From Clostridiales bacterium (GTDB lineage Bacteria > Bacillota > Clostridia > Lachnospirales > Lachnospiraceae), in NCBI GenBank assembly GCA_020859995.1, contig JAJBVE010000050.1, positions 1 to 44,280 on the forward strand: a stretch of 44,280 nt of DNA, in the 5' to 3' direction. How positions within the stretch are numbered: position 1 is the first letter of the stretch; the number at the start of each line of letters is the position of its first letter. Under the pieces are notes generated by a model, which was given only the letters and a program-made list of their open reading frames with translations, was not told where the DNA came from and did not search any database. Of the stretch, positions 21,513 to 31,240 are shown piece after piece. Both the position numbers and the translations under genes were made by a program.

Positions 21513-22166
21513 ATGGAACGTCTGGCATGTCTTGCAATTGGTTATGTCTTCGGACTGTTTGAGACCAGCTATATTATTGGCCGGCTGCATGGGATTGATA
21601 TCCGTGATTACGGCAGTGGGAACGCAGGTACGACAAATATGATGCGCACACTGGGAAAGGGCTGGGGCTGCCTTACCTTTGTGGGCGATGGGTTAAAGCC
21701 GGTTTTTGCGGCTCTTGTTACCTGGCTGATTTTCGGAAAAACCTATGCGGATATATGGCCATTGCTCTGCGTATATACCGGACTTGGCGCAGTGCTTGGA
21801 CACAGCTTTCCTTTTTATCTGGGATTTCGCGGAGGAAAGGGCATTGCCACTACCGGCGGCACAACGCTTGCTTTGCATCCGGCGCTCTGCCTGCTCGCCA
21901 TTATCGGCTTTTGTACAGGTTTCTTTCTGACTGGATATGTTTCTGTGGGGTCTTTAATTGTGGCGGGTGGATTTCTGGTGGAATCCGTGATTTTTGGTCA
22001 GCTTGGTATTCTGGGCATGACCCAGAGATACCTGTATGAGCTTTATGCGGTCGTTGCTGTGATTACGGTTTTGGATTTTTACAAACACAGCAGCAACATT
22101 GACCGGCTGCGAAAAGGAGAAGAGCGAAAAGCAGGTTTTCTGGACAAATCTAAGAAAAATAAATAA
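21513..22166 (+). CDS. plsY: Glycerol-3-phosphate acyltransferase PlsY
   Basis: Integral membrane enzyme that transfers acyl from acyl-phosphate to glycerol-3-phosphate, the first step of phospholipid synthesis. The 217-residue protein has several membrane segments and the PlsY motifs GSGNAGTTNMMRTLGKGWG (motif 1) and LGHSFPFYLGFRGGKGIAT (motif 2). It starts directly after the der stop; gpsA, which makes its substrate, follows, so der-plsY-gpsA forms a functional group. Confidence 0.95.
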   Translation: MERLACLAIGYVFGLFETSYIIGRLHGIDIRDYGSGNAGTTNMMRTLGKGWGCLTFVGDGLKPVFAALVTWLIFGKTYADIWPLLCVYTGLGAVLGHSFPFYLGFRGGKGIATTGGTTLALHPALCLLAIIGFCTGFFLTGYVSVGSLIVAGGFLVESVIFGQLGILGMTQRYLYELYAVVAVITVLDFYKHSSNIDRLRKGEERKAGFLDKSKKNK

Positions 22167-23620: not shown

Positions 23621-24055
23621 ATGCATCTTATTGAGGATGAGAACGGCAATCCGGTTCCACACGAGCATGAGCATGAGCATACACACACCCATACGTATGA
23701 ACACTCCCACCCTCACACGCACGAGCATGGACAGGAAGACGACCATCATCATGATCATGGAGAAGAGCATTGCCACGTGCACGGCGGCGAGGAATGTCAT
23801 ACACACGATCATGCGCATTGCGGCAGCTGCGGCGAACATGCGCAGGACGCTCCGCAGGGAGATAAAATGGTCGCTCTGCTTGACTATATGTTAAAGCATA
23901 ACGAGCATCACGCGGCGGAGCTTGATCAGGTAGCAGAGTCCTTCCGCGCAGATGGAAAGGCAGCGGCTGCTGAGCAGATCAAGAAAGCGGTCGATGAATT
24001 CCAGAAGGGAAATCTTTATCTGAAGCTTGCACTCTCTATGGTGCAGGACGCCTGA
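23621..24055 (+). CDS. His-rich metal-binding protein, probable nickel storage/delivery factor for CODH (CooJ-like)
   Basis: 144-residue soluble protein in two parts. Residues 1-73 carry 24 histidines, mostly in HEHEHEH, HTHTHT and DHHHDHG runs, plus four Cys (51, 59, 67, 70). Residues 83-144 look all-helical (MVALLDYMLKHNEHHAAEL, then QIKKAVDEFQKGNLYLKLAL). No signal peptide or membrane segment. His-rich proteins such as CooJ bind many Ni ions for CODH; CooJ has its His tail at the C-terminus, whereas here it is N-terminal. Next to cooT, cooC and acsA, a Ni role is strongly suggested but inferred. Cobalt or zinc binding is possible. Start behind AAAGGGG at 8 bases. Confidence 0.75.
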   Translation: MHLIEDENGNPVPHEHEHEHTHTHTYEHSHPHTHEHGQEDDHHHDHGEEHCHVHGGEECHTHDHAHCGSCGEHAQDAPQGDKMVALLDYMLKHNEHHAAELDQVAESFRADGKAAAAEQIKKAVDEFQKGNLYLKLALSMVQDA

Positions 24056-25251: not shown

Positions 25252-27144
25252 ATGGGAGAATTTAAGTTGACTACGATTGAGGAGTTTGAAGCGGCCACGA
25301 ACCGGCTCCTCGAGACCGGGGCAAAGGTAGGAGCGGACGCCTACCAGTTCCGTGTGAAGAATCAGACGCCGCATTGCAAATTTGGCGAGCAGGGTGTCTG
25401 CTGCCGTATCTGTACAATGGGGCCGTGCCGGATTACCCCGAAGGCTCCGCGCGGTATCTGCGGCTGCGACGCGCACGGCATCGTAGGACGTAATTTCCTG
25501 AGATTCACGGCGGGCGGCGCCGCGACACATTCTGATCATGGCCGTGAGATTTGCCATACTCTTTATTGTACATCTCCTGATGGCAATTATAAGGTAAAGG
25601 ATCCTGAAAAACTGATCCGTATTGCCCATGAGTGGGGAGTAGAGACCGAAGGCAAGGATATCTATGATCTGGCTCATGAGATGGCTGTATTGGCTCTTGG
25701 CGAGTACGGCAAGGTATTCGGATTCCAGAATTTCCTCAAGCGTGCTCCGAAGCATACACAGGAGCTCTGGGAGAAGGCTGAGATTCAGCCGCGTGCCATT
25801 GACCGCGAGGTTTCCTGTTCGATGCATATGACTCATATGGGATGCTCCTCCAAACCGGAAGCACTGATCCGCCAGTCTCTGCGCACAGGCCTGGCAGATG
25901 GCTGGGGCGGCTCCATGGCAGGTACGGAGTTCTCTGATGTTCTGTTTGGAACGCCGAAGCCAATTGACACTGAGGCAAATCTGGGTGTTATGGTGGAAGA
26001 AAACGTCAACATCGTCGTACATGGACATGACCCGTCACTTTCTGAGATGATCTGTGAGTATGCGGATGATCCGGAAATGATTGCTTATGCGAAAGAAATG
26101 GGCGCGAAGGGCATTACGGTATCCGGTGTTTGCTGTACTTCTAATGAAGTAGCGATGCGCCGCGGTATTCCGATGGCAGGCAACTTCCTTCAGCAGGAAA
26201 ATGTTATCCTGACTGGTGCCTGTGAGGCAATTGTTGTGGATGTACAGTGTATTTTCCCGGCTATCGGACCGCTGGCAAAATGCTTCCATACCAAGTTCAT
26301 CACGACTTCCCCGATCGCGCAGATGCCGGAGAGCGACTACATCCGTTTCTCACCGGAAAATGCAGGCGAGAATGCGAAGGCAATCGTGAAGATGGCCATT
26401 GAAAACTTCAAAAACCGTAAGCCGGAGCTCGTACATATTCCGCAGCTGAAGCAGCATGCGACAGTGGGCTATTCTGTAGAAGCTATTAAGAAGACTCTGG
26501 ATACGGTTACGAACTCTCAGGTTGATGAAACTGGCACATTAAAGCCGCTTGTTGAGTGCATCAATTCCGGCGTTATCCGGGGTGCGGTTGCGATGGTAGG
26601 CTGCAACAACCCGAAGGTTCGTCCGGATACCGCTCATATCGGTCTGATGAAGAAGCTGATTGAGAACGACATCATTATCGTGGCTTCCGGCTGCTCCGCA
26701 CAGGCGGCGGCAAGAGCGGGCCTGATGGACAAGAGAGCCAAGGATCTCTGCGGCGCTGGTCTTAAGAGAGTCTGTGAGCTGGCTGACATTCCGCCGGTAC
26801 TTCACATGGGATCCTGCGTAGACATCAGTCGTATGATGGTTCTGGTGTCAGATCTGGCGAAGGATTCTGGCTGGAACATTTCCCAGCTCCCGGTAGTCGG
26901 CTGCGCACCGGAGTGGATGTCTGAAAAGGCGGTTTCCATCGGAAACTACGTTGTAGCGACCGGTCTGGACACCTTCCTCGGTGTTGACCCGTACGCAAGC
27001 GGCTCTTCAGAGGTAGAAGACCTGCTGCAGGGCGGCATCCGCGACTGGGTAGAGGCAGCTTACACCGTAGAGACCGACATCGATAAGCTCGTGGATAAGA
27101 TGATCGAGCGGATCGAAGAGAAGAGAACGGCTCTTGGTATCTAA
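25252..27144 (+). CDS. acsA: Carbon monoxide dehydrogenase catalytic subunit (CooS/AcsA)
   Basis: Ni-Fe enzyme that reduces CO2 to CO for acetyl-CoA synthesis. 630 residues. N-terminal D and B cluster cysteines are in CKFGEQGVCCRICTMGPC (Cys42, 50, 51, 54, 59) followed by GICGC. C-cluster ligands are recognisable: His in VVHGHDPS (257/259), GVCCTSNE (294/295), TGACEAI (324), VGCNNP (451), SGCSAQ (481) and MGSCVD (522). The three-domain layout (helical, then two Rossmann-like) is complete. GAGG-type ribosome site (TGGAGG). Clusters with two cooC genes, and a paralog of its last domain lies at 28386. Confidence 0.96.
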   Translation: MGEFKLTTIEEFEAATNRLLETGAKVGADAYQFRVKNQTPHCKFGEQGVCCRICTMGPCRITPKAPRGICGCDAHGIVGRNFLRFTAGGAATHSDHGREICHTLYCTSPDGNYKVKDPEKLIRIAHEWGVETEGKDIYDLAHEMAVLALGEYGKVFGFQNFLKRAPKHTQELWEKAEIQPRAIDREVSCSMHMTHMGCSSKPEALIRQSLRTGLADGWGGSMAGTEFSDVLFGTPKPIDTEANLGVMVEENVNIVVHGHDPSLSEMICEYADDPEMIAYAKEMGAKGITVSGVCCTSNEVAMRRGIPMAGNFLQQENVILTGACEAIVVDVQCIFPAIGPLAKCFHTKFITTSPIAQMPESDYIRFSPENAGENAKAIVKMAIENFKNRKPELVHIPQLKQHATVGYSVEAIKKTLDTVTNSQVDETGTLKPLVECINSGVIRGAVAMVGCNNPKVRPDTAHIGLMKKLIENDIIIVASGCSAQAAARAGLMDKRAKDLCGAGLKRVCELADIPPVLHMGSCVDISRMMVLVSDLAKDSGWNISQLPVVGCAPEWMSEKAVSIGNYVVATGLDTFLGVDPYASGSSEVEDLLQGGIRDWVEAAYTVETDIDKLVDKMIERIEEKRTALGI

Positions 27145-27323: not shown

Positions 27324-28103
27324 ATGAAGATTGCAATTACTGGAAAGGGCGGGGTAGGCAAGACTACTTTTGCGGCGACGCTTGCACGGCTTTATGCAGA
27401 TGAGGGCCGTTCTGTGCTGGCGGCGGACGCTGACCCGGACGCCAATCTTGGCCTGGCGCTCGGATTCAACGAAGAGGATCTGGACGCAATTGTGCCGATC
27501 ACCAAGATGAGAAAGCTCGTGGAAGAGCGCACCGGCGCGGATGAGTTTAACAAGATTTTCAAGCTGAATCCAAAGGTAGATGATATCCCGGATAAATACG
27601 CAAAAAAATGCAACGGTGTGAAGCTTCTTGTACTCGGTACGGTGGAAACCGGCGGCAGCGGCTGCGTCTGCCCGGAGCATGTGATGCTCAAACGGATCAT
27701 CAATCATCTGATGCTTCGCTCAAACGATGTGGTCATCCTTGACATGGAAGCAGGCCTTGAGCATCTGGGGCGCGGGACGACAAGCGGGATGGACGCATTC
27801 ATTGTTGTCATCGAGCCTGGTGCGAGAAGCGTACAGACTTACCGCAATGTAAAACGCCTGGCTGATGATCTGGGCGTCAGGCAGGTCTATGTAGTGGCCA
27901 ACAAGGTGCGTGATGAGAAGGATGAAGAATTTATCCGTTCGAAAATTCCGCCTGAGGATCTGCTCGGCGTGGTTCATTATAATGCCGAAATCATAGATGC
28001 GGACCGGAACGGTTCCTCGCCTTATGATTACAGTACGACTGCGGTAGCTGAAATCCGCGCGATCAAGGAAATCCTGGATCAGTCGGAAGCTTTGAATGCG
28101 TAA
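27324..28103 (+). CDS. cooC: CODH/ACS nickel-insertion ATPase CooC/AcsF, second copy
   Basis: 259-residue MinD-type ATPase. Walker A GKGGVGKTTF (8-17), ADADPDANLGLALG, and the CxC pair GSGCVCPE (Cys114, Cys116), then VILDMEAGLEHLGRGTT. Clearly diverged from the copy at 24399; an additional ~20 residues (KNPKV/KYAKKCNG area) precede the CxC. In characterised acetogens one such protein (AcsF) matures ACS. Placement just before the CODH-like protein and acsB fits that role. Weak GAGG site. Ends before a promoter at 28194. Confidence 0.9.
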   Translation: MKIAITGKGGVGKTTFAATLARLYADEGRSVLAADADPDANLGLALGFNEEDLDAIVPITKMRKLVEERTGADEFNKIFKLNPKVDDIPDKYAKKCNGVKLLVLGTVETGGSGCVCPEHVMLKRIINHLMLRSNDVVILDMEAGLEHLGRGTTSGMDAFIVVIEPGARSVQTYRNVKRLADDLGVRQVYVVANKVRDEKDEEFIRSKIPPEDLLGVVHYNAEIIDADRNGSSPYDYSTTAVAEIRAIKEILDQSEALNA

Positions 28104-28222: not shown

Positions 28223-28385
28223 TATAAGTAACGACCAACAGAGAAGCGGCCAGACGGCCATGTGAGCTCTGCACCGCCAGAACGCGAATCGTTTCTGATA
28301 AAGGCGGAGCAGCCTGCCGATTCTCTTTGTACTGTGATCGTTTCCTGACAACGATGCTTAAAAAGAAAGAAAAGAGGCGAATGAA

Positions 28386-29078
28386 ATGAGTGATTCTGCA
28401 TTACCGAAGCTTGAAGTAGCGGACATCATCCAGGCGCTGGATGGCGTATGTAATTCGAAGGTGGATTCGACCGGATCCACAAAGCCGCTGCTGGACTGTG
28501 TTGTGTCCGGCGTTCTTCGCGGCGCGGCAGTTTTGCTTGGCACAGATGGTTCAGATGTACGGGATAAAGAAGAGTATACGGCTCTGATTAAAAAGCTGAT
28601 CGCGAATGATATCGTTGTACTCGCGATTGGTTACCCGGTTACGGTAGCTGCTGATGCGGGGCTTCTGAATCCGGAAGCGAAGGATCTGTGCGGAGCGGGA
28701 CTGAAGCGTGTCTGTGAATTGGCGGAGATTCCTCCGGTGCTGCCGCTTGGCGGACTGGAAAACACTGGCAATGTCGTAACGATTGCTCAGGCACTTTCGG
28801 CGGATTCGGGACTTACCGTACCGCAGCTTCCGGTCGTGGGCTGTGATGCTGCTGGCGTGACAGCACAGGCCGTCGAGCTTGGCAATACGTTTGTCGGTCT
28901 TGGGGTAGATACATTTATCGGTATCATGCCTTATGAGGGCGCACTCGAGGATGTGATCGCGGCCAGCGGTCTGAAGGATGGGGCAGAGGCAAAGCATACT
29001 GTATCTGCTGATCTTGATGAGCTTGCGGACGCGCTGATCGCAGACATCGAGAAAAAGCGTCAGGCGATTGAAATCTGA
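28386..29078 (+). CDS. Stand-alone paralog of the CODH C-terminal domain lacking C-cluster cysteines
   Basis: 230 residues that align over nearly their whole length with residues ~396-630 of the acsA product. Identical blocks include AKDLCGAGLKRVCELA, IPPVL and PQLPVVGC, and both end with EKKR/EEKR plus a short tail. The three C-cluster cysteines of this domain are all replaced: VGCNNP becomes LGTDGS (Thr53), SGCSAQ becomes IGYPVT (Tyr83), MGSCVD becomes LGGLEN (Leu124). So it cannot hold the Ni-Fe cluster. It has its own start (ATG after AAAGAGGCGA) and no frameshifts, and it precedes acsB by 35 bases. Not a broken acsA: synonymous divergence is high while the fold-defining residues are kept. 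Role unknown; an assembly or structural partner of CODH/ACS is inferred. Confidence 0.85.
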   Translation: MSDSALPKLEVADIIQALDGVCNSKVDSTGSTKPLLDCVVSGVLRGAAVLLGTDGSDVRDKEEYTALIKKLIANDIVVLAIGYPVTVAADAGLLNPEAKDLCGAGLKRVCELAEIPPVLPLGGLENTGNVVTIAQALSADSGLTVPQLPVVGCDAAGVTAQAVELGNTFVGLGVDTFIGIMPYEGALEDVIAASGLKDGAEAKHTVSADLDELADALIADIEKKRQAIEI

Positions 29079-29113: not shown

Positions 29114-31240
29114 GTGACTTTATTTGATGTTATTTTTAAAGGAAATGACGCAGTATATGGTCTTACGGAAAATGCGATTAACGACGCGATCGCGAAGTAT
29201 GGCGCAGATAAGCCGGTAGCATTTCCGGATACCGCTTACAGCATTCCGTGTTATTACGGTGTAACCGGTACTAAGGTCGGCAATCTGGGAGAACTCAAAG
29301 AGGCTCTTGGCGTTGTAAAGACTCTGATGACCAGAAATCCGAGAATGAACGATGCGTTCATGTCCGGTATCGCGACTGCACTTTGCGCGGAATTTATTGA
29401 AGTGCTGAAGTATATTGACAATCCGACTCCTTATGAGGAGCCGTGTTATGGTCATCTTGCGGATGCAGTGATCCGTGAGCTGGGTGTACCGCTTGTTACC
29501 GGCGATATCCCGGGCGTTGCGGTTATCATCGGTGCTGCTCCGACTGCTGAGGAAGGCGTTGCTCTGGTAAAGAGCTATCAGGCGCAGGGTATTCTGGTGA
29601 CTCTGGTCGGCGATATTATTGATCAGTGTACAGAACTGGGTTACAAGACCGGCGCGAATGTACGTGTGATCCCGCTTGGCAAGGACATCACGGCTGTGAT
29701 CCATGTCGTGTCCGTTGCTGTAAGAGCGGCTTTGATCTTCGGCAATATCACACCGGGTGATGCTGCAGGACTTATGAAGTATACGATGGAGCGTGTTCCG
29801 GCATTTGTGAACGCATTCGCTCCGCTGAATGAAGTAATCGTAGCAGCCGGTGCCGGCGCGATTGCTCTTGGTTTCCCGGTTATCACGAATGAAGAGACCT
29901 TCCGCGTACCGAAGAGCCTGATCGTACAGAAGGATGTCTCCAAATTCAACGCAACTTCTCTGGAAGCCCGCGATATTAAGCTTAAGATTACCGACATTGA
30001 CATTCCGGTAGCGTTCGCATCCGCATTCGAGGGCGAGATTATCCGCCGCGGCGATATGCAGGTTGAGTTTGACGGCTCCAGAGTGGACTGCTTCGAGCTG
30101 GTTCACAACAAGGAGGCTTCCGAGGTTGAGGATCATAAGATTGAAGTGATCGGACCGGACATTGATTCTTTTGAAGTGGGCAGCAAACACTCCATCGGCT
30201 ACATAGTAGAGGTTGCCGGCAAGAGCATGCAGGCGGACTTTGAGCCGGTATTTGAGCGTAAGTTCCACTCTTATCTGAACTGTATCGAAGGTGTGATGCA
30301 CACCGGCCAGCGTGATATGATCCGTATTCGTATCAGCAAGGATACCTTCAACGCAGGTTTCCGCGCAAAGCACATCGGCGAGGTGCTCTATGCGAAGGTA
30401 AAGAGCGAGTTCGCAGCTGTTGTAGATAAGTGCCAGGTGAAGGTTATCACCGATCCGGAAATGTGTACAAAGCTTCGCCATGAGCTGGCGATCCCGATGT
30501 TTGATAAACGTGATGAACGTCTGACGACCCTGACAGATGAGGCCGTAGATGTTTACTATAGCTGCATTATGTGCCAGGCATTCTCCCCGAGTCATGTCTG
30601 TGTGGTTACTCCGGAGCGTCTGGGACTGTGCGGCGCTGTTTCATGGCTGGACGCAAAGGCTACCAACGAGCTGGATCCGCAGGGACCGTGCCAGGTAATC
30701 ACAAAAGAGAAAGTGATCGACGAGCGCATTGGTGAGTATGAAGATGTCAACGATGCAGTCCGGAAGTTCTCTCAGGGCGCACTGGAAGATGTATCTCTGT
30801 ATTCCATCATTGAGAAGCCGATGACAAGCTGCGGCTGCTTCGAGTGCATCTGCGGTATCGAGCCGCTTTCCAACGGTGTCTGCATTGCGAACCGTGAGTA
30901 CGCAGGCATGACCCCGATCGGTATGACCTTCTCTGAGCTGGCATCCATGACCGGCGGCGGTGTCCAGACACCGGGCTTCATGGGCCACGGCAAGCACTTC
31001 ATCTCTTCTAAGAAGTTCATGAAGGCAGAAGGCGGCATCGCCCGTATCGTATGGATGCCGAAGGATCTGAAGGATCAGGTGGCAGAACGCCTGAACGCGA
31101 CAGCAAAAGAGCTTTACGGAATCGATAACTTCGTCGATATGATTGCGGATGAGACCGTAGTTACCGAAGATCCCGAAGCATTGCTTGAGTTCCTGACTGA
31201 AAAAGGCCATCCGGCCCTCGGAATGGAACCAATGATGTAA
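29114..31240 (+). CDS. acsB: Acetyl-CoA synthase (CODH/ACS subunit beta)
   Basis: Joins CO, a methyl group from the corrinoid protein and CoA at the A-cluster. 708 residues, full length with the N-terminal CODH-contacting domain. A-cluster ligands keep exact family spacing: Cys484, 487, 496 and 506 (CIMCQAF, HVCVV, LGLCG) for [4Fe-4S] with Cys487 bridging, and the distal Ni site C573-G-C575 in TSCGCFECIC. Start is GTG 29114, 7 bases behind AGGAGG. Followed by an unusual hairpin array before acsD. Confidence 0.97.
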   Translation: MTLFDVIFKGNDAVYGLTENAINDAIAKYGADKPVAFPDTAYSIPCYYGVTGTKVGNLGELKEALGVVKTLMTRNPRMNDAFMSGIATALCAEFIEVLKYIDNPTPYEEPCYGHLADAVIRELGVPLVTGDIPGVAVIIGAAPTAEEGVALVKSYQAQGILVTLVGDIIDQCTELGYKTGANVRVIPLGKDITAVIHVVSVAVRAALIFGNITPGDAAGLMKYTMERVPAFVNAFAPLNEVIVAAGAGAIALGFPVITNEETFRVPKSLIVQKDVSKFNATSLEARDIKLKITDIDIPVAFASAFEGEIIRRGDMQVEFDGSRVDCFELVHNKEASEVEDHKIEVIGPDIDSFEVGSKHSIGYIVEVAGKSMQADFEPVFERKFHSYLNCIEGVMHTGQRDMIRIRISKDTFNAGFRAKHIGEVLYAKVKSEFAAVVDKCQVKVITDPEMCTKLRHELAIPMFDKRDERLTTLTDEAVDVYYSCIMCQAFSPSHVCVVTPERLGLCGAVSWLDAKATNELDPQGPCQVITKEKVIDERIGEYEDVNDAVRKFSQGALEDVSLYSIIEKPMTSCGCFECICGIEPLSNGVCIANREYAGMTPIGMTFSELASMTGGGVQTPGFMGHGKHFISSKKFMKAEGGIARIVWMPKDLKDQVAERLNATAKELYGIDNFVDMIADETVVTEDPEALLEFLTEKGHPALGMEPMM

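Follow-up and report, generated by a model that had tools for sequence, protein, structure and literature searches.

The carbon monoxide dehydrogenase/acetyl-CoA synthase (CODH/ACS) complex is the carbon-fixing core of acetogens, and most descriptions of its bacterial form name two subunits, CODH and ACS. We analyzed a 44,280-nucleotide stretch of DNA (the window; contig JAJBVE010000050.1 of assembly GCA_020859995.1, from a Clostridiales bacterium of the family Lachnospiraceae) that carries a CODH/ACS gene cluster with an intact acsA, which encodes CODH, followed by cooC2, which encodes a CooC-type ATPase and is named here by its position and its P-loop ATPase hits, and acsB, which encodes ACS. 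Between cooC2 and acsB lies an additional gene for a protein of 230 amino acids. A preliminary description of the window had presented this gene as a stand-alone copy of the C-terminal domain of CODH, beside cooC2 and 35 bases before acsB. We found that the open reading frame, its coordinates, its length, its placement and its homology to the C-terminal domain of AcsA are all as described, and that it begins 282 bases after cooC2. We refer to the gene and its relatives as SA, for stand-alone.

SA is 46% identical to the neighboring AcsA (102/222 identical positions; E 3e-64) over AcsA residues 409-630, the part of CODH known as Rossmann fold 2; the match begins near residue 409, not near residue 396 as first reported. 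The conserved block AKDLCGAGLKRVCELA is kept in SA, in agreement with the preliminary description, and the three-dimensional fold of SA is the same as that of CODH Rossmann fold 2. The N-terminal domain of CODH, which holds the B- and D-clusters, and Rossmann fold 1 are both missing. SA scored 86.5 bits against the Pfam family PF03063 (Prismane/CO dehydrogenase), above the gathering threshold of 27, and matched positions 345-511 of the 513 in that profile. TIGR01702, the equivalog model for the CODH catalytic subunit, was the sole NCBIfam model matched by the SA proteins (22/22 tested); the SA score of 91.5 bits does not reach its curated cut-off of 478. SA contains no tryptophan and at most two histidines (five rows checked).

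In CODH, this domain contributes three cysteines to the C-cluster. In the window, all three are replaced in SA (Thr53, Tyr83 and Leu124), as previously claimed, and Tyr83 and Leu124 are found in 25/25 of the rows that reach these positions. The loss is not universal: position 53 is threonine in 17/26 rows, glycine in 7/26 and cysteine in 2/26 (one row is cut). The two proteins that retain the first C-cluster cysteine belong to early-branching relatives (L052 and L092), and thus show an intermediate state of cysteine loss. At position 161, SA proteins carry an invariant glutamine that aligns with AcsA Lys559, which we take to be the active-site acid-base lysine equivalent to Lys563 of CODH-II; K563 mutant entries occur among the 50 matches listed for SA. 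Because three of the six C-cluster ligands and this lysine are lost, and the remaining ligands belong to a part of CODH that is absent from SA, SA cannot build a C-cluster of its own. SA is not, however, "cysteine-free" as first described: five other cysteines are present and conserved, with Cys22 and Cys38 invariant in 26/26 rows and Cys102, Cys110 and Cys153 in 25/25 ungapped rows.

We assessed selection from the ratio of nonsynonymous to synonymous substitution rates (dN/dS, by NG86), using only pairs with 0.1<dS<1.2 (91/300 pairs for SA). The median dN/dS of SA was 0.060. Under the same rule, we obtained 0.033 for AcsA (0.024 for its N-terminal part and 0.053 for the paralogous domain), 0.086 for AcsB, 0.040 for CooC2 and 0.034 for AcsD. 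Comparison of SA with the paralogous domain of AcsA (0.060 and 0.053) indicates that SA is held about as tightly as the domain inside CODH, and we therefore reject relaxed or neutral evolution, for which a value near 1 had been named as the sign. Synonymous sites are saturated between SA and AcsA (pS 0.78 over 179 codons). Together with the loss of the catalytic residues, these results bear out the earlier view of SA as an old, selected, non-catalytic duplication: SA is almost certainly a non-catalytic paralogue of CODH Rossmann fold 2 that is maintained by selection. That SA is an assembly artefact or the decaying remnant of an acsA duplicate would be in keeping with the lost catalytic residues and with the lack of the gene in 12/37 loci, but the dN/dS of 0.06, the frame that is intact in 25 genomes and the retention of both the ribosome-binding site (RBS)-like motif and the place of the gene refute this explanation, to which we give almost no credence. 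Similarly, SA is not a piece of a frameshifted full-length cooS, since cooC2 lies directly upstream of it in 25/25 loci.

In phylogenetic trees, the SA proteins formed one clade (support 100/100). With an outgroup of 11 AcsA sequences that represent other families of the class, SA was nested in a clade of 34 rows, the rest of which are AcsA proteins of the window's family (98/94); one AcsA of that family, L125, fell outside it. The SA stem measures 1.84 changes per site, against 0.04-0.15 on the tips. These data show that SA originated by duplication of an AcsA gene within its family, and that a burst of change and then constraint followed. The AcsA of the genus itself is a possible parent: with SA constrained to group with the AcsA rows of the genus, the approximately unbiased test gave p-AU values of 0.017 (LG+G4) and 0.156 (mixture model), the SA stem being very long. 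An origin from a second, non-acetogenic CooS is not favored, as SA nests with the AcsA of the family. An SA profile scored 194-251 bits on AcsA-type matches of the family (with exceptions at 157 bits, in G134, and at 165 bits for a cut match in G189), whereas the other CODH matches listed for the family sample all stayed below 100 bits.

We found full SA genes in 25 genomes, with the frame intact in all, and the gene is thus not found only in the window. In the window's genus, 22/47 genomes carry a full SA and one more (G021) carries a copy cut at a contig end. Twelve genomes have AcsA and no SA: in 11 of these cooC2 directly precedes acsB, and in the other (G025) the contig holds the end of acsA and acsB, with neither cooC2 nor SA found. 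Two contigs are cut before the SA site (G002 and G007), and ten genomes gave no match. A scan of contigs from named genomes yielded 24 stand-alone loci, all in metagenome-assembled genomes titled Lachnospiraceae, Clostridiales, Eubacteriales or Marvinbryantia sp.; they include L090-L092 beyond the genus set and one additional, cut copy (L094). Among the matches listed, no stand-alone copy was found outside the genus group in samples of the family (397 genomes, 71 with matches), the order (392, 29 with matches at 1e-20), the class (391, 60 with matches) or the phylum (398, 111 with matches at 1e-15). The samples, which overlap and contain the window's own genome, were taken from larger groups; three short frames in them were inspected and proved not to be such copies, and nine others (G189:C143, G226, G785, G830, G609, G1254, G1178, G1227 and G1479) were not opened. 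One short frame, in G473, was rejected as a contig-edge effect, and an Acetoanaerobium match proved to be a full AcsA of 640 amino acids. We conclude that SA is a real, conserved, lineage-restricted gene in a group of gut bacteria. When mapped on the AcsA and AcsB trees as obtained, its presence and absence require three changes, of which well-supported branches force only one and two; loss or transfer has therefore probably also occurred.

The place of the gene is constant: SA lies between cooC2 and acsB in 25/25 full loci, 41-344 nt after the former and 17-202 nt before the latter, and the RBS-like motif GAGGCG precedes it in 25/25. In the 12/12 SA-lacking loci examined, cooC2 and acsB are at most 51 nt apart, and three of these pairs overlap by 4 nt. 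In a table of PMC6925170, the A. woodii cluster is given as acsA, cooC2 and acsB1 in order, with a gap of 61 nt between the last two. The earlier proposal that SA has its own promoter is backed by conservation, as TTGCAA-17-TATAA[A/C] is found in the spacer before SA in 15/16 loci examined from the window's subclade. An exact scan of 138 loci, which misses a variant in L040, confined the element to this subclade and did not find it in the other nine SA loci. The element may split SA and acsB into a transcription unit of their own in this one subclade. In the other ten SA loci, the cooC2-SA spacers are short (41-53 nt in nine and 127 nt in L043), pointing to transcription of SA by read-through from cooC2 in these loci. 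No RNA family reached its gathering score between positions 22000 and 36000 of the window. Upstream of cooC1, positions 23621-24055 encode a protein of 144 amino acids with 27 histidines in HEHEHTHTH-type runs. It had no Pfam or NCBIfam match at 0.01, a relative occurs in 32/38 loci examined, and it looks like a nickel-binding helper.

We next compared 25 SA with 65 AcsA sequences and mapped which parts of the domain have been kept and which rebuilt. Of 151 sites conserved in AcsA (SA residues 11-230), 73 are altered in SA. The changes are concentrated at the former active site: within four residues of its four former residues, 27/32 sites are altered (expected 15.5, P 3e-6). For this test, the distance from the four residues was fixed and no sites other than those conserved in AcsA were counted; distances of 3, 4 and 5 gave P values of 2e-4, 3e-6 and 1e-5. 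Conversely, two segments delimited with the map in view are largely kept, namely the loop and helix alphaA at SA residues 24-46 (2/15 sites altered, expected 7.3, P 0.004) and residues 89-119 (5/25 altered, expected 12.1, P 0.0016). The rim of the lost metal site, which takes in Tyr83-Pro84, Gly122-Asn126 and Cys153-Asp154, has been rebuilt and then conserved anew, with 20/31 rim positions (limits drawn after the map) invariant in the 25 SA proteins.

Table 1. Features of the SA locus and its surroundings, in window coordinates.
Feature	Position	Strand	Remarks
acsA (CODH)	25252..27144	+	intact; residues 409-630 are the paralogous domain
cooC2 (CooC-type ATPase)	27324..28103	+	directly upstream of SA
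Promoter-like element TTGCAA-17-TATAAA	28194..28222	+	conserved; before SA-acsB
RBS-like motif GAGGCG	28374..28379	+	of SA
SA	28386..29078	+	cluster-less copy of CODH Rossmann fold 2; open reading frame, homology to AcsA
SA residues 31-46	28476..28523	+	region of helix alphaA, kept from AcsA with no strongly conserved change; limits are ours
SA codon 53 (Thr)	28542..28544	+	former first C-cluster Cys of the domain; aligned with AcsA Cys451
SA codon 83 (Tyr)	28632..28634	+	former second C-cluster Cys of the domain; aligned with AcsA Cys481
SA residues 89-119	28650..28742	+	helix alpha2 and IPPVL strand, kept from AcsA
SA codon 124 (Leu)	28755..28757	+	former third C-cluster Cys of the domain; aligned with AcsA Cys522
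SA codon 161 (Gln)	28866..28868	+	aligned with AcsA Lys559
acsB (acetyl-CoA synthase)	29114..31240	+	directly downstream of SA

If the former cluster pocket bound a small molecule, SA might act as a regulator that tunes CODH/ACS or its expression in response. In Rossmann-like domains, the site that matches this pocket is the usual place for ligand binding, and both the 20/31 invariant rim positions and the promoter-like element that SA and acsB have to themselves in one subclade would fit such a role. The Pfam and NCBIfam scans, however, returned CODH models only and no ligand-binding family, and we consider this explanation unlikely. SA might instead be a maturation factor that stands in for the real domain for a time, keeping apo-CODH or apo-ACS open together with the CooC2 ATPase while metal is inserted, and then leaves. 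The position of the gene between cooC2 and acsB in every full locus, the lack of an active site in SA and the histidine-rich, probably metal-binding protein encoded in the same cluster are in line with this idea. Yet the C-cluster of CODH sits between the two Rossmann folds, and the loops that once surrounded it are the most rebuilt part of SA; SA should therefore fit poorly in the place of the real domain in AcsA; moreover, genomes without SA also have cooC2 and acsB. On balance, we regard a role in maturation as improbable.

Given the position of the gene and its ancestry, we propose that SA is a non-catalytic accessory protein of the CODH/ACS complex, and that it acts with CODH/ACS is likely. 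SA would most likely dock on ACS or on the assembled complex through its kept faces, helix alphaA with the preceding loop and helix alpha2, while the rebuilt rim, where the conserved changes lie, would serve as a new binding site for a partner or a small ligand. As far as PMC11474084 was consulted, the N-terminal end of Rossmann fold 2 holds ACS in the CODH/ACS of C. autoethanogenum, with a role for helix alphaA in docking; in Methanosarcina CODH, the same fold stands in for the A1 domain of ACS and gates the CO channel; and A1 is suggested to have arisen by duplication of Rossmann fold 2. Among structures in the PDB, that of C. autoethanogenum is the closest to the window's AcsA, at 726 bits; Moorella 1mjg scored 438. 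The arrangement in C. autoethanogenum, as described in that source, makes docking of SA on ACS more plausible, and, with the likeness of the two enzymes, the best interpretation of a free, cluster-less fold with alphaA retained is an accessory chain that contacts ACS or the whole complex. From the observed location of the gene and pattern of its changes we infer a partner and an effect, and we rate the accessory-subunit explanation as a whole at about an even chance; docking on ACS specifically is possible but somewhat doubtful. More tentatively still, SA could be a third subunit of bacterial CODH/ACS, bound to ACS in the manner of the CODH domain and deciding which partner or gas route ACS uses; it would then repeat the duplication proposed to have created A1.

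Several points weigh against an accessory subunit that docks on ACS. SA is carried by 23/35 judgeable genomes of the genus, and 12/35 do without it; 12 genomes, of which 11 are among these and the other is L064, have cooC2 next to acsB and no SA, and SA is therefore dispensable for CODH/ACS as such. Helix alphaA is alike in a D. vulgaris CODH that is annotated simply as carbon monoxide dehydrogenase, so that its retention in SA may reflect the fold only. The SA model is weakest (pLDDT <50) at residues 22-35, in the loop just before alphaA. In addition, the P values given above ignore the relatedness of the rows, and those for residues 24-46 and 89-119 depend on limits that were not chosen blind. 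Finally, SA does not track the large differences among three types of AcsB N-terminal domain, which weighs on a tight interface between SA and ACS A1, where tracking might be predicted.

These three sequence types of the A1 domain (positions 29114-30013, AcsB residues 1-300, in the window) have their boundary between about residues 250 and 300. Type II occurs in L044, L046, L047, L048 and L050, and type III in L041-L043, L045, L049, L051, L090 and L091. Type II AcsB is about 75% identical to that of the window over residues 1-290 and 97-98% identical in the rest, with high synonymous differences in both parts. Types II and III were seen only in SA-bearing genomes (13/24 with full-length acsB). 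Comparable A1 jumps are nevertheless present in L064 and L123, neither of which showed an SA, and the SA sequences do not sort by A1 type; co-evolution of SA and A1 was therefore not used as evidence.

SA has 230 residues, compared with about 630 in the CODH catalytic subunit (AcsA/CooS, TIGR01702), and it lacks the B- and D-cluster part, the C-cluster ligands (except for the one kept in 2/26 rows) and the active-site lysine. The ACS A1 domain has a similar fold, whereas SA is a separate gene derived from AcsA; an hhalign comparison of SA with AcsB residues 1-300 gave a probability of 1.2% (E 0.044, 41 columns), both profiles being shallow. By its description in the part of PMC11474084 consulted, the archaeal CODH epsilon subunit (CdhB) is comparable in being a small additional CODH-binding chain made of a single Rossmann fold; CdhB was not among the 50 matches listed for SA, which excludes nothing. 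In titles, abstract openings and parts of PMC6344411, PMC11338639, PMC13056359, PMC12289521, PMC6925170 and PMC11206085, we found no description of a stand-alone CODH domain or of an extra CODH/ACS gene. According to the part of PMC6344411 consulted, that survey of Ni-CODH retained a sequence only if its D-, B- and C-clusters and its catalytic residues were free of deletions, and a protein of the SA type would therefore have been left out. SA thus adds to the known diversity of CODH. If SA is indeed an accessory subunit, a conserved extra chain made from the ACS-facing domain of CODH would mean that release of a domain can add parts to the complex, and would offer a tractable case for the origin of ACS A1 by the same kind of duplication, as proposed in PMC11474084 in the part consulted.

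Two further short CODH frames were considered as stand-alone copies and rejected. The frame of 259 amino acids in G1313 retains its cysteine and represents one half of a CODH that is broken into two frames. At L140:2241-4194 (minus strand), a CODH of another family lies in two overlapping frames (416 and 259 amino acids) directly before a gene with an AcsB-like product end. The second candidate, in the single-contig genome G1199 (L141:4249-5283), is a C-terminal half of CODH with 344 amino acids. Like SA, it is a short CODH piece without the N-terminal domain; unlike SA, it is longer, belongs to another family and keeps all three cysteines; it may be a truncated CooS, or its gene may be broken or split.
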